Below, in pieces: positions 36,177 to 40,809 of a DNA stretch of 42,853 nucleotides. Source of the stretch: Clostridiaceae bacterium (GTDB lineage: Bacteria; Bacillota; Clostridia; Saccharofermentanales; Saccharofermentanaceae); the NCBI GenBank assembly GCA_012729635.1, contig JAAYCT010000038.1, forward strand, positions 1 through 42,853, read 5' to 3'. Within the stretch, counting starts at the first letter, position 1; each line of letters begins with the position of its first letter. Made by a program: the position numbers and the translations under genes. The notes under the pieces were generated by a model. That model made no database searches, was not told the DNA's origin, and was given only the letters and a program-made list of their open reading frames with translations.

Positions 36177-36791
36177 ATGCCGAGAGTGATTTCCGGACGG
36201 TTTAAAGGGACAAGGCTCCTGGCGCCTAAGGGCGACCGGACACGTCCGACATCCGATAAGGTGAAGGAGGCGCTGTTTTCAATCATTCATGCCCGAATTC
36301 CCGGATCAAGCTTTTTGGATCTATATGCAGGAAGCGGACAAATCGGAATTGAGGCTGTAAGCAGGGGGGCATATGAAGCCGTTTTAGTCGAGCAAAGCCG
36401 GGCGGTTACGGATATCATTCGACTCAATATCGAAAAAGTACATGCCGGCAACACAATATCAGTATGGAGCTCGGATGTGTTCTCGGCGCTTCGAAAGCTC
36501 GGTGAGAGTAAACACCGGTTTGATCTGATTTTTATGGACCCGCCTTATGCGGAAGCGGCTGCCGCTTTTCGAAAAGCGGTGACCATAATCCATCGATATG
36601 ATTTGTTGAAGGAGGACGGACTGTTAATTGTAGAACATTCGTCGGACTCGGGCATCGAAGAAAATGTAATCAACTTGACATTGAGCAGACGTTGTAAGTA
36701 TGGATTGACTCTGCTAACATTCTATAACAGATACAATGATACGGGGGGTACCGTACGAAGTGAAGACCTTTCTGTTCCCCGGGAGCTTTGA
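36177..36791 (+). CDS. rsmD: 16S rRNA (guanine(966)-N2)-methyltransferase RsmD
   Basis: This 204-residue SAM-dependent methyltransferase starts MPRVISGRFKGTRLLAPKGD, then TRPTSDKVKEALFSII. SAM motif I is FLDLYAGSGQIGIEA, and the catalytic motif is DLIFMDPPYAEAA. It methylates G966 of 16S rRNA. AAAGGAGAG precedes the ATG. It is 14 bases after recG and overlaps coaD, the standard recG-rsmD-coaD order of Clostridia. Confidence 0.96.
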   Translation: MPRVISGRFKGTRLLAPKGDRTRPTSDKVKEALFSIIHARIPGSSFLDLYAGSGQIGIEAVSRGAYEAVLVEQSRAVTDIIRLNIEKVHAGNTISVWSSDVFSALRKLGESKHRFDLIFMDPPYAEAAAAFRKAVTIIHRYDLLKEDGLLIVEHSSDSGIEENVINLTLSRRCKYGLTLLTFYNRYNDTGGTVRSEDLSVPREL

Positions 36792-37248
36792 TCCTTTCTC
36801 GTTGGGACATCGGGACATCGCAAAAAGAGCGGCCGATTTGTGTGACCGGTTGGTGGTCGCCGTATTAAATAATCGCGGTAAATCTCCGGTTTTTTCTTTG
36901 CAAGAGCGTGTCGAAATGGCAAACCAGAGTCTTTCCGGGGTTCCGGGTGTTGAAGTGATATCGTATGTCGGACTGCTGGTAGACCTTTATCGCAACGTGG
37001 ATGCAGCGGCTGTCGTTCGCGGGTTGCGTGCGGAGTCGGATTTTCGGATTGAGGCGGAAATGGCCGCCGCGAACAAGTTGCTCAACCCGGATTATGAAGT
37101 GATTTTATTACCGTCGAGTGCGGATATGGTTTTTATCAGTTCATCGACAATCAAAGAAGTGGCTTTTTTCGGCGGTGATGTTTCGAAAATGGTCTGTCCG
37201 CAAATCGCTGAATTCGTTAAAGCGAAGATTTCGGAAAGGAAGGCGTAG
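36760..37248 (+). CDS. coaD: Phosphopantetheine adenylyltransferase CoaD
   Basis: This protein of about 162 residues has the nucleotidyltransferase motif FPGSFDPFSLGHRDI (HxGH-type) and AVVRGLRAESDFRIEAEMAA. The C-terminal ISSSTIKEVAFFGGDV has Lys where Arg is more common. It makes dephospho-CoA from 4'-phosphopantetheine. GTG 36760 is preferred because GGGGGG lies upstream and it matches the family's start; ATG 36736 is the alternative (170 residues). It overlaps rsmD by 32 bases. Confidence 0.95.
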   Translation: MKTFLFPGSFDPFSLGHRDIAKRAADLCDRLVVAVLNNRGKSPVFSLQERVEMANQSLSGVPGVEVISYVGLLVDLYRNVDAAAVVRGLRAESDFRIEAEMAAANKLLNPDYEVILLPSSADMVFISSSTIKEVAFFGGDVSKMVCPQIAEFVKAKISERKA

Positions 37249-37253
37249 TTTTA

Positions 37254-37742
37254 ATGGAGGAGTATGCGGCACCGGATAATGTAAGGTCCAATCGTTCCGG
37301 TGAGTCTGATTTATTTGAACTGCTTGACCAGCTTCAAGAAACGGTTACTCAAGCCAAAGGCTTACCGTTTTCGGATAACTGCGTCGTTGATCGTCAGGAT
37401 GTCCTGTACTGGATCAATCAGATTCGAGAGAATTTGCCCGAGGAAGTTAGACAAGCCAGATGGATTGTCGAGCAAAATCGGCAAATTGTAGCAAGCGCGC
37501 GCCAGAAGGCAGAAAGCATACTTAGGGAAACCGAGCAGCGCTCCGCCATAATGATTGACGAACACGAAATCACATTACGTGCACGCGAAATGGCACAAAC
37601 GACCATTGAGCAGGCAAATCAGGCGGCCTGGCAAATTCGTGTCGCGTCGACGGATTATGCAAGACAACGTCTGACCGAAATCGAGAATCAATTGACGGAG
37701 ATTCTTGTGAAAGTGCAAAAAAACAAGAAAGAACTCAAGTAG
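37254..37742 (+). CDS. Coiled-coil protein (ATP-synthase-b/DivIVA-like helix), function unknown
   Basis: The 162-residue protein is almost wholly helical and charged. After a disordered head comes LFELLDQLQETVTQAKGLPF, DVLYWINQIRENLPEEVRQA, and a long heptad coiled coil (about 70-160). Similar genes directly follow coaD in many Clostridia and are often labelled ATPase or V-type ATPase subunit H-like only because of the coiled coil; no nucleotide-binding motif is present. The start ATG at 37254 has GGAAAGG upstream. A structural or division-related role is plausible but not shown. Confidence 0.8.
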   Translation: MEEYAAPDNVRSNRSGESDLFELLDQLQETVTQAKGLPFSDNCVVDRQDVLYWINQIRENLPEEVRQARWIVEQNRQIVASARQKAESILRETEQRSAIMIDEHEITLRAREMAQTTIEQANQAAWQIRVASTDYARQRLTEIENQLTEILVKVQKNKKELK

Positions 37743-37763: not shown

Positions 37764-38975
37764 ATGCTGTTGGGGATCAGAATCAAAAATTACTCGCTTT
37801 TCCTCGATGATCGGGCGGGAGCCCTTCTCGAGGATTATTTGTCCGGAGGCGTCAACAACGGTGCGGCTATGTCTGCCGGACTTCCCGCAATCATCCCGAT
37901 GTCAAGCCTCAACGCCGTAATCGGGAGAAACCAATCCGGGAAAAGCACATTTTTTGACTGCTTGTCATTTATTTCCGATGCTGTTTCCAAGGGGTGTGTC
38001 GAGGCCTCGGTTATTCGCGGAAGATCGGGTTTTTCCCGTCTGATTTCCCAGGGAGCGGATTCGATGAGCTTTGAGCTGCTGTTTTTCATGTCCAACGGCC
38101 ATAACCCGGCTCTTCCGGATGAATTCTATGTTTCCTATTCATTTTCGCTCCGGCCGGATGGTAACGGTAAACCTTCCTTCATCTCCGAAAATGTTCGATA
38201 TACCACGAGGCCTGAACACAAGGACAGCTATAAGACCGTTCTTTCCGTAGAAAACGGAACCGGTCGTGTATATTTCTCGGACATTGCGATGGAAGCCAGC
38301 CTGTCCGATTCACGACACTCCGCGCTCAGAACATATGGAAATATTCTGCAGTGTCCGGTATTGAATGCGTTGCTTGATGAAATGACCAAATGGTTTTTCT
38401 GCCGTTTTTCCGTGAGCAAGGCAGAGAACGGTATGAAGCAAAAAGTCGCTCCGGGCGCACACAAGCATTTGAATAGCGACGGAAGCAACATGAAAAATGT
38501 GCTTGATTATCTTTCAAAAGAAAACCCGAAACAGTACAGGCGTCTCATGGATCGATTGTCCGAAAAGATACCTAAGGTCGGACGAGTGATGGATAAATTG
38601 CCGGATGATTTCCGATCGAGTCCGAATCGTCTGTTTCTCTATTTGCTTTTACTACACGATCCCGTTCCGCGTCCGTTGATTTGCATCGAGACGCCCGACC
38701 TTGAGCTTTATCATGATATGGTTGATGTACTGTCAGCGGAATTTCGTGATTACTCGATCCGAAACCCGTATTCGCAGATCATATTTTCAACGCATAACCC
38801 ATATATTCTTGAGGCGATGGCTCCGAACGAAGTGTGGATTTTTAAAAGAAGCGATGAAGAGGAGCCCGATTCGGTGGACATCCGGTGTGCCGGAGCGGAT
38901 CCGGTCGTTTCGGAAATGTACGAACAAGGCGTCGGTATGGGGGCGATGTGGTATTCGGGGCATTTTGACGATTGA
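37764..38975 (+). CDS. AAA (AAA_15/AAA_21, OLD/RecF-like) ATPase of a two-gene module
   Basis: This 403-residue protein has an N-terminal ABC/SMC-like ATPase half. Walker A is GRNQSGKS at 54-61. A central insertion of about 250 residues precedes the Walker B strand LICIETPDLELYH (E309, D312) and the switch motif IIFSTHNPYILEAM (S342-H344-N345). It has no fused nuclease domain. Such ATPases pair with TOPRIM-type partners in OLD- and PARIS-like defence systems. It lies 14 bases before a DUF4276 gene, each with its own ribosome site (AAGGAG here). No phage-specific evidence exists in the window; a repair or housekeeping role is possible. Confidence 0.88.
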   Translation: MLLGIRIKNYSLFLDDRAGALLEDYLSGGVNNGAAMSAGLPAIIPMSSLNAVIGRNQSGKSTFFDCLSFISDAVSKGCVEASVIRGRSGFSRLISQGADSMSFELLFFMSNGHNPALPDEFYVSYSFSLRPDGNGKPSFISENVRYTTRPEHKDSYKTVLSVENGTGRVYFSDIAMEASLSDSRHSALRTYGNILQCPVLNALLDEMTKWFFCRFSVSKAENGMKQKVAPGAHKHLNSDGSNMKNVLDYLSKENPKQYRRLMDRLSEKIPKVGRVMDKLPDDFRSSPNRLFLYLLLLHDPVPRPLICIETPDLELYHDMVDVLSAEFRDYSIRNPYSQIIFSTHNPYILEAMAPNEVWIFKRSDEEEPDSVDIRCAGADPVVSEMYEQGVGMGAMWYSGHFDD

Positions 38976-38989
38976 ATCGGGGAGAGCGA

Positions 38990-39664
38990 ATGCGTTTTGA
39001 AGTATTGACGGAAGACCGATCCGGCGCGGTGATGATGAACCGTTTAATGGACAAAATATTAGACCCTCTTCTTACCGACTATTCGGTTTCACTTCGTCCT
39101 CATCGGGGACGGGGAGATTGGCCGGCAAATCCTTTTGGACCGCCGAAAGCCGAAGCGACGGGTCTTTTGGATCTTCTGCCCGCCAAGCTTCGGGCATATG
39201 ACCGGATTTATGCGGGTAGCAAATGGGTTCTGGTCGTCGTAATGGATTCTGACTATCATTCCCCGGGTGAGCTCAGGGCTGAGTTGATTGATTTATGTAA
39301 AAAGTTTGCCCCTTCGATTCCCTTTGTTATCGGGTTATGTGTAGAGGAAACCGAGTCATGGTTAATCGGTGATCAAGTGGCACTTACATCCGCTTATCCG
39401 AATGCGGATCTTTCTGTTTTTGAAGAATATCGTCAGGACAGCGTTTGCGGAACGTGGGAAATGCTCTGTCATTCGATTTTGGGATCCTCCGCGGATCGGG
39501 TAATCCGGATCGGGTATCCCGCGATCGGTCAGTACAAGCATGAATGGGCCAATCGAATATCCGAATATATGGACCCCGAACGAAACGTGTCACCGAGCTT
39601 CAAGAAATTCTACTCATATCTTCGGTACATTGTAAAGAAAGAATCGGAGCAACAGAGCAAATGA
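38990..39664 (+). CDS. DUF4276 family TOPRIM-like protein, partner of the ATPase
   Basis: The 224-residue protein starts MRFEVLTEDRSG. It has a TOPRIM-like acidic set: E8 in LTEDRSG, D86 and D88 in VLVVVMDSDYHS, and E119/E122 in LCVEETESWLIGD. It ends with EYMDPERNVSPSFKKF, a DUF4276 signature in my reading. TOPRIM proteins cut or manipulate nucleic acid with Mg2+. ATG 38990 has GGGGAGAG upstream; the TTG at 38972 is unlikely. It overlaps hemW by four bases (ATGA). Nuclease activity is an inference, not shown. Confidence 0.85.
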   Translation: MRFEVLTEDRSGAVMMNRLMDKILDPLLTDYSVSLRPHRGRGDWPANPFGPPKAEATGLLDLLPAKLRAYDRIYAGSKWVLVVVMDSDYHSPGELRAELIDLCKKFAPSIPFVIGLCVEETESWLIGDQVALTSAYPNADLSVFEEYRQDSVCGTWEMLCHSILGSSADRVIRIGYPAIGQYKHEWANRISEYMDPERNVSPSFKKFYSYLRYIVKKESEQQSK

Positions 39665-40809
39665 CCGAGTGTTCCTCCGCATATATTCACATTCCGTTTT
39701 GTTTAAGAAAATGCCCGTATTGCGATTTTGTATCCTTTGATGACTCGTCGGCGCTCCGGCCTTCATATCTCATTGCACTGAGGAAAGAGATTGAACGAAC
39801 GGCTATCACGCATCCGGTCGGAGAGATGAAAACGATATATTTCGGTGGCGGCACTCCGACACTTTTTAGTCCCGAAGAACTCAAGAGTATTTTAACCGCA
39901 ATTCTTTTTTCGTTCGATGTTCACTCCGGAGCGGAAATTACCGTGGAGGCAAATCCGGGCACAATCGATTTTAATTCGTTAACGGGATATAAGACTGCGG
40001 GATTCAACAGAATTTCAATCGGGGTTCAGAGTTTTTCGGAAGCGGATCTTCGTGTGCTCGGAAGAATTCACTCGGCCGATCAAGCGAAAGAGTCCTTGTT
40101 GATAGCTCGTGAGGCCGGGTTTTCAAATATATCCTGTGACCTGATGATCGGACTTCCCGGACAAACGATCGATACGGTTCGAGGTAATGCGGGTCAGTTG
40201 ATCTCGATGGGTATTCCCCATATTTCCTGTTACTCCCTTTCCCTTGAGACGGGAACCTTGTTTCACCGTCGATATTCGACTCATTCGGATCAGCTTCCGA
40301 CCGATGAAGAGGAGCGGGAAATGTATCATGCTATCCGGAGAATGCTCTTGTCCGAAGGATATATCCATTATGAAATCAGTAATTTCGCACTGCCCGGATA
40401 TCAGAGCCGACATAATACGACATATTGGGATGCCAAAGGATATTACGGGTTCGGGTGCGGAGCTCATTCCTACGTTGAAAGGACTCGGTACGCCAACACA
40501 ACCGATCTTAAAGAGTATATTCATATCATGTTGTCCGACGATTCGAATCCGGACCGGATACGTAAGGATAAGGAATCGATCGGACCCAAGGAAGAGGCCT
40601 CTGAGTTTATGCTCCTCGGATTCAGGAAAACGGAAGGCATATCGCGCGGCGACTTCGAATCCAGATTGGGTGTATATCCCGAGGAAATCTTTTCAAAAGA
40701 ACTATCTGAGCTCATCAAGAAGGGGTTGATTGAGCGCGATGAGGATCGGTATCGACTGACCGAGAAAGCACTTGATTTTGCGAATGTTGTTTTTCGGAGT
40801 TTTGTGTAA
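39661..40809 (+). CDS. hemW: HemW-type radical SAM protein (heme chaperone, HemN-like)
   Basis: The 382-residue radical SAM protein has IHIPFCLRKCPYCDFVSFDD, whose three cysteines bind [4Fe-4S]. It also has the GGGTPTLFSPEEL and SIGVQSFSEADLRVLGRIHS motifs and the HNTTYWDAKGYYGFGCGAHS segment typical of HemW. True coproporphyrinogen oxidase HemN has a different C-terminal end, so HemW is preferred. HemW binds heme and inserts it into targets. ATG 39661 overlaps the DUF4276 stop; GGAG lies about ten bases upstream. A terminator-like hairpin follows. Confidence 0.94.
   Translation: MTECSSAYIHIPFCLRKCPYCDFVSFDDSSALRPSYLIALRKEIERTAITHPVGEMKTIYFGGGTPTLFSPEELKSILTAILFSFDVHSGAEITVEANPGTIDFNSLTGYKTAGFNRISIGVQSFSEADLRVLGRIHSADQAKESLLIAREAGFSNISCDLMIGLPGQTIDTVRGNAGQLISMGIPHISCYSLSLETGTLFHRRYSTHSDQLPTDEEEREMYHAIRRMLLSEGYIHYEISNFALPGYQSRHNTTYWDAKGYYGFGCGAHSYVERTRYANTTDLKEYIHIMLSDDSNPDRIRKDKESIGPKEEASEFMLLGFRKTEGISRGDFESRLGVYPEEIFSKELSELIKKGLIERDEDRYRLTEKALDFANVVFRSFV

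Follow-up and report, generated by a model that had tools for sequence, protein, structure and literature searches.

The closest described counterpart of the gene pair analysed here is HEC-01, a defence candidate that PADLOC models as an ATPase (HEC-01A) followed by a DUF4276 protein (HEC-01B), and whose name we take to imply a location in or near other defence genes. Searches of the openly licensed PMC literature turned up HEC-01 in five papers, one of which lists it as a detected system, but no experimental test of it and no mention of DUF4276; HEC is likewise not named in the excerpted main text of the PADLOC papers. The same literature yielded nothing tying a HEC-01/DUF4276 pair to Saccharofermentans or to vertical inheritance, and nothing relevant on MADS or on domesticated core defence genes.

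Dyads in which two genes encode an OLD ATPase and a Toprim protein have been widely interpreted as conflict systems (excerpts of PMC12839542 and PMC10440598). PARIS (AriA-AriB, class 4 OLD) and AbiL (AbiLi-AbiLii) have this layout, with an ATPase and a Toprim-type protein encoded by separate genes, and AriB, the Toprim partner of its OLD ATPase, is described as cutting tRNA (excerpt of PMC12409363). Gabija GajA (class 2 OLD), also a fusion, is partnered by a helicase; it is a true defence protein that has probably lost ATP hydrolysis, according to the excerpted text of PMC12796447. The same text describes Cran1 (class 5 OLD), which is kept vertically across one order, the archaeal Sulfolobales, apparently not for defence, and which is apparently needed for the cell cycle. 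Cran1 is a single fused protein in which, as described there, all ATPase and nuclease active-site residues are conserved.

The pair reported here is of an already known kind, that of the PADLOC candidate HEC-01; the unusual part is its inheritance. Like HEC-01, it consists of an ATPase gene and then a gene for a DUF4276 protein, and the PADLOC models cover most of both proteins. Unlike HEC-01, it is non-mobile, lies outside any defence region and is inherited vertically beside hemW, and the copies in the window's family lack the ABC signature and the catalytic glutamate of the ATPase.

A HEC-01-type gene pair directly upstream of hemW

The window, by which we mean the whole stretch of 42,853 nucleotides that was analysed, has two adjacent + strand open reading frames at 37764-39664, an ATPase gene and then a gene for a predicted DUF4276-like nuclease. 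They match HEC-01A (PDLC04182, 7.2e-68) and HEC-01B (PDLC04205, 2.2e-60), respectively. Their neighbours are rsmD, coaD (36736-37248, +) and a coiled-coil gene (37254-37742, +) upstream, and hemW (39661-40809, +) followed by two genes that we take, from sequence and customary gene order, to be hrcA and grpE downstream. The stop codon of the nuclease gene overlaps the start of hemW in an ATGA at 39661-39664. The initial annotation had described a two-gene module inside a housekeeping run, with an ATGA overlap into hemW, and both observations held.

The coiled-coil gene is found upstream of the pair in the window's family only and has no confident family assignment. Its protein is 93-94% identical within the genus, above coaD or recG, and ~30% identical in another genus of the family.

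Predicted ATPase and nuclease sites

The first gene (37764-38975, +; coding 37764-38972, with the stop codon running to 38975) encodes a 403-residue protein that was correctly read at the outset as an OLD/RecF-like ATPase: it has a Pfam AAA_21 match of 1.2e-15, above the cut-off, and its structure model (pLDDT 86.3) had Gabija GajA as the best Foldseek match, followed by other OLD ATPases, and also matched retron Eco8 and SMC/Rad50 heads, so that it can be classed as an OLD/SMC-type ABC ATPase. Walker A occupies residues 54-61 (GRNQSGKS, 37923-37946, +), and its lysine K60 is kept in every group examined. At residues 284-287 (38613-38624, +) the ABC signature is degenerate, reading RSSP where all homologues outside the order have SDGT. 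The Walker B region spans residues 306-312 (ICIETPD, 38679-38699, +), ETPD being residues 309-312, and has T at position 310, which is E in all outside homologues. An STH at residues 342-344 includes the H-loop histidine H344 (38793-38795, +), invariant in all groups. The motif names (ABC signature, H-loop) and the label of catalytic glutamate follow usage for ABC ATPases.

The second gene (38990-39664, +) encodes 224 residues when read from the ATG at 38990; the ORF listing also gives a longer alternative from a TTG at 38972. This protein was first read as DUF4276. The window protein scores 20.7 bits against DUF4276 (PF14103), under the gathering cut-off of 30.2, but in the orthologue alignment 28 of the 30 rows match it with E no higher than 0.01, the best being 1.2e-11. 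Seven of its residues do not vary inside the order or in outside homologues: E8 (39011-39013, +) after strand 1; D86 and D88 of a DxD motif, D86-S-D88 (39245-39253, +), after strand 3; the three glutamates of E119-E120-T-E122 (39344-39355, +) after strand 4; and K183 (39536-39538, +). E8, D86 and D88 were invariant in 30/30 and 11/11 alignment rows. The positions initially assigned to these three residues, and to Walker A, ETPD and STH in the ATPase, were all correct.

The active site of BpOLD comprises E400, E404, D455, D457, T506/E508 and K562 (excerpt of PMC6755086), and the invariant nuclease residues run in the same order. By that order E8 would be equivalent to E400 and the two aspartates to D455 and D457, the glutamates after strand 4 offer a candidate metal-B acid like E508, and K183 is a candidate equivalent of K562; E404 is left with no obvious counterpart. 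In the structure model (pLDDT 91.1) the strands lie at residues 2-7, 32-37, 79-85 and 112-117, with the acids right after the strand ends, which gives the strand order and motifs of a Toprim fold. The initial annotation had named absence of such a fold as grounds for doubt; the model has this arrangement, and the fold match is not decisive. Foldseek returned no match to the nuclease model with E below 0.001, and a second structural aligner placed OLD Toprim regions in its top rows (Z 7.6, rmsd 4.2, 169 aligned), with an Argonaute MID domain tying at 7.5. In a search of the nuclease sequence against solved structures there was no convincing relative, the best match (E 0.0035) being to a short chain. 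Because Foldseek was null and unrelated folds tie in the second aligner, the Toprim assignment rests on motif order, which suggests that the second protein is a Toprim-type nuclease.

The proposal that the locus is PARIS-type did not hold: no AriB or DUF4435 model matched the second protein at E up to 1, and the ATPase matches AriA models only weakly (2.7e-13). The ATPase matches the AbiLi model (2.1e-15), and identity with AbiL was rejected for want of an AbiLii/RloB match in the second protein. MADS identity was rejected too, since a match to MAD3 reached 51.9 bits against an NCBIfam cut-off of 420. Membership of class 5 OLD was rejected as well, the pair being two genes in Clostridia and not one fused Sulfolobales protein.

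Distribution within the order

We denote the window's family f1 and three other families of the same Clostridia order f2, f3 and f4. Of 58 genomes searched, the window's own included, 47 have the ATPase gene and exactly these have the nuclease gene, a co-occurrence that excludes chance pairing. The nuclease gene was found in 137 of 188 genomes of the order and, by a family tally counted from the result rows, the pair was found in 108 of 115 f1 genomes, which does not support a patchy presence at the locus. The seven f1 genomes without the pair are all 74-86% complete, and six of them also lack hemW, so that the locus is not assembled there; in the remaining one (G008) hemW comes straight after the coiled-coil gene, so that the pair is cleanly missing. 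The pair is also absent from whole clades of the order, and together with G008 this indicates that it is not essential order-wide. Two nuclease matches occurred in three of the 137 carriers, in one of which (G026) a contig break cuts the gene in two. The other two (G112 and G150) each have two near full-length nuclease matches on different contigs, which could reflect either contamination or a duplication.

In 44 of 46 relatives, from four families, the ATPase gene, the nuclease gene and hemW stand in this order on one strand, with the pair directly 5' of hemW. The exceptions are a genome in which hemW is inverted (G040) and G026, where a contig end breaks the locus and an extra gene precedes hemW. 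This extra gene, lying between the nuclease gene and hemW (L067, 730-1944), encodes an AAA_14/DUF4143 ATPase. The nuclease and hemW frames overlap in 24 of the 44 loci, with starts picked by script. The upstream side is rsmD, coaD and the coiled-coil gene in f1; carriers in f2-f4 mostly have an SPFH protein gene, the pair and then hemW at the loci looked at. The link to hemW has thus outlived a change on the upstream side. Non-carriers in the order have SPFH or M28 peptidase genes next to hemW with no pair between. Nine of the flanking proteins at these carrier and non-carrier loci were assigned by Pfam, and the others from the first 60 residues of each. No defence genes were found beside the pair in the window or in its relatives, all neighbours being of housekeeping type.

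Inheritance and selection

The pair is inherited vertically at a single locus under purifying selection, and its tree largely agrees with that of core genes. For 26 f1 genomes, 11 of 13 well-supported splits in the pair tree recur in a recG-rsmD-coaD-hemW tree, with no supported conflict; the distance between the two trees is 18/46, and that of hemW from the same core tree, which contains hemW, is 16/46. Single-gene trees showed one (ATPase) and three (nuclease) supported conflicts with the core. A pair tree of 45 genomes from across the order recovers f1, f2 and f4 each as a clade (f2 is not one in a tree of the ATPase alone) and has three supported conflicts with hemW. With 15 outside homologues included, the ATPases of the order group in a single clade (support 0.97); two loci were omitted from this tree, one (L204) because it duplicates the prophage stretch of L197 and the other (L215) because it repeats the ATPase gene of L207.

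Over 25 close pairs dN/dS was 0.012-0.132 for the ATPase, 0.018-0.113 for the nuclease, 0.022-0.097 for coaD and 0.07-0.21 for hemW, values that are rough because many pairs have a dS greater than 1 and two cells have no defined dS; the pair is near coaD and mostly below hemW. A specific co-evolution of ATPase and nuclease was rejected, their family distance correlation (0.94) being no higher than that with recG (0.95).

The initial annotation held that universal, vertical inheritance at this locus with no link to defence islands would speak against its proposal. Within f1 this is nearly what is found, and it argues against an ordinary mobile defence system.

Homologues outside the order

Outside the order the distribution has the pattern of a mobile module, unlike that within it. 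Among 393 genomes of the class there was no match outside the order, all 17 matches being inside it, and in a 398-genome sample of the phylum matches occurred in nine other genomes of nine genera and nine families. Five records of a plasmid collection, one record of a phage collection and three IMG/VR entries also matched. Homologous pairs lie in a phage-gene region (prophage) of a Rahnella plasmid, on a Pseudomonas conjugative plasmid and inside a type I restriction operon of a Meiothermus plasmid. The ATPase gene was in front of the nuclease gene at each outside locus that was opened. On an unverified phage record (L199, MT836340.1) the pair is accompanied by genes for a tyrosine integrase and an rRNA adenine dimethylase; the record may represent an element integrated in a bacterium.

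Loss of ATPase motifs

The ABC signature and the catalytic glutamate are lost in the window's family, and the nuclease residues are intact. Motifs were compared in an alignment of 33 f1, 78 named-record (mostly f1), 14 other in-order, 6 mobile and 10 sporadic loci; two of the sporadic loci come from one gene, 78 of 80 named-record loci had a full ATPase, and L204 was again omitted and L215 retained. The Walker A lysine K60 and the H-loop H344 are kept in every row. At all 16 outside loci the ABC signature reads SDGT and Walker B has E-E. In all 33 f1 copies the signature glycine is replaced (by S in 18, by K in 15), and so is the catalytic glutamate (by T in 18, by S in 12, by A in 3); among the 78 named-record loci each is kept in two. 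In f4 both are lost in 6/6 copies, by other residues than in f1. In f2 the glycine is kept in 6/7 and the glutamate in 3/7, and the single f3 copy keeps both, so motif loss is not order-wide. Because GajA is described as having probably lost hydrolysis too and still defends, motif loss alone does not prove a non-defence role.

Discussion

On balance the pair is probably a captured HEC-01-type module that became fixed next to hemW in the ancestor of the order, was inherited vertically and was adapted to a cellular job. The ancestor of this Clostridia order would have captured the module, an OLD-like ABC ATPase with a DUF4276 Toprim-type nuclease, once. Loss of the ATP-burning motifs together with an intact nuclease site suggests, at the level of sequence, that the module was tamed for the cell's own job. 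We infer that the ATPase subunit would bind ATP and dimerise or hold the nuclease, acting as a nucleotide-dependent switch rather than as a fast-cycling motor, and that a DNA state, or less likely RNA, may trigger release of the two-metal Toprim nuclease. The cellular job, best supported by analogy with Cran1, would most likely be chromosome maintenance or a stress response. Like the pair, Cran1 is an OLD-type ATPase-nuclease inherited vertically across one order; its cell-cycle role is shown in the excerpted text of PMC12796447. Of the two possibilities first raised for the locus, a domesticated or an unrecognised system, "domesticated" is the better half; "unrecognised" falls because PADLOC already models the pair.

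The main alternative is that the pair is still anti-phage, a chromosomal immune system fixed lineage-wide in which, as in PARIS or AbiL, a toxic Toprim nuclease would be set free once the ATPase detects infection. We consider this rather unlikely, though several observations speak for it: the HEC-01A and HEC-01B matches place the pair among PADLOC's defence candidates, relatives outside the order occupy prophage, conjugative-plasmid and type I restriction-operon settings, no nuclease residue has been lost, OLD ATPase-Toprim dyads are described as conflict systems in the excerpts cited above, and GajA is said there to defend after losing hydrolysis. Against it are the single fixed locus, vertical inheritance, low dN/dS, the lack of a defence island and the finding that f1 copies have lost both ABC signature and catalytic glutamate. 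That the pair is instead a passenger, kept before hemW by operon structure as a relic under weak or no selection, is quite improbable: frame overlap means that deletion could hurt hemW translation, but dN/dS is low, the catalytic residues are invariant, frames are full-length in all families and G008 illustrates that clean loss is possible.

That the pair processes RNA, perhaps as a stand-in for RNase M5 (the Toprim enzyme of 5S rRNA maturation), also seems very unlikely. Not one of 62 genomes from the order had an RNase M5 (TIGR00334) match over the cut-off, with a positive B. subtilis control, and AriB offers a precedent for RNA cleavage by a Toprim partner; yet members of the order without the pair likewise lack RNase M5, with no complementary pattern, and RNase M5 is not known to have an ATPase partner. 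The stand-in was rejected because the enzyme is absent from carriers and non-carriers alike. Its absence across the 62 genomes means that 5S rRNA there is probably matured by another enzyme. Hardly any probability attaches to a replacement or duplicate of RecF-RecR, the classic pair of ABC ATPase and Toprim protein (RecR) in gap repair. The general pairing of an SMC-like ATPase with a Toprim protein is the same, but RecF is over the cut-off in 57 and RecR in 54 of the 62 genomes, carriers included, and with both present almost everywhere neither has been replaced; in the window's own genome the matches to TIGR00611 and TIGR00615 sit elsewhere (G000:C35 and G000:C28).

Returning to the captured and adapted module, its further reading as a bacterial counterpart of Cran1 is a serious possibility, somewhat short of probable: a mobile two-gene immune module would have become a vertically inherited genome-maintenance device that lost its ATP-cycling motifs and kept its nuclease, with graded intermediates among families. 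The passage from immune module to cellular machinery has so far mostly been inferred from isolated examples. In the present case a single module is visible as a mobile form and, at one fixed place, as partly canonical forms (f2, f3) and as a motif-stripped core form (f1, and f4 by other residues), which makes the order of steps testable by a few residue swaps. PADLOC-type annotation will score what is here a core pair of genes as acquired defence in an order whose carriers are a group of gut and environmental Clostridia.
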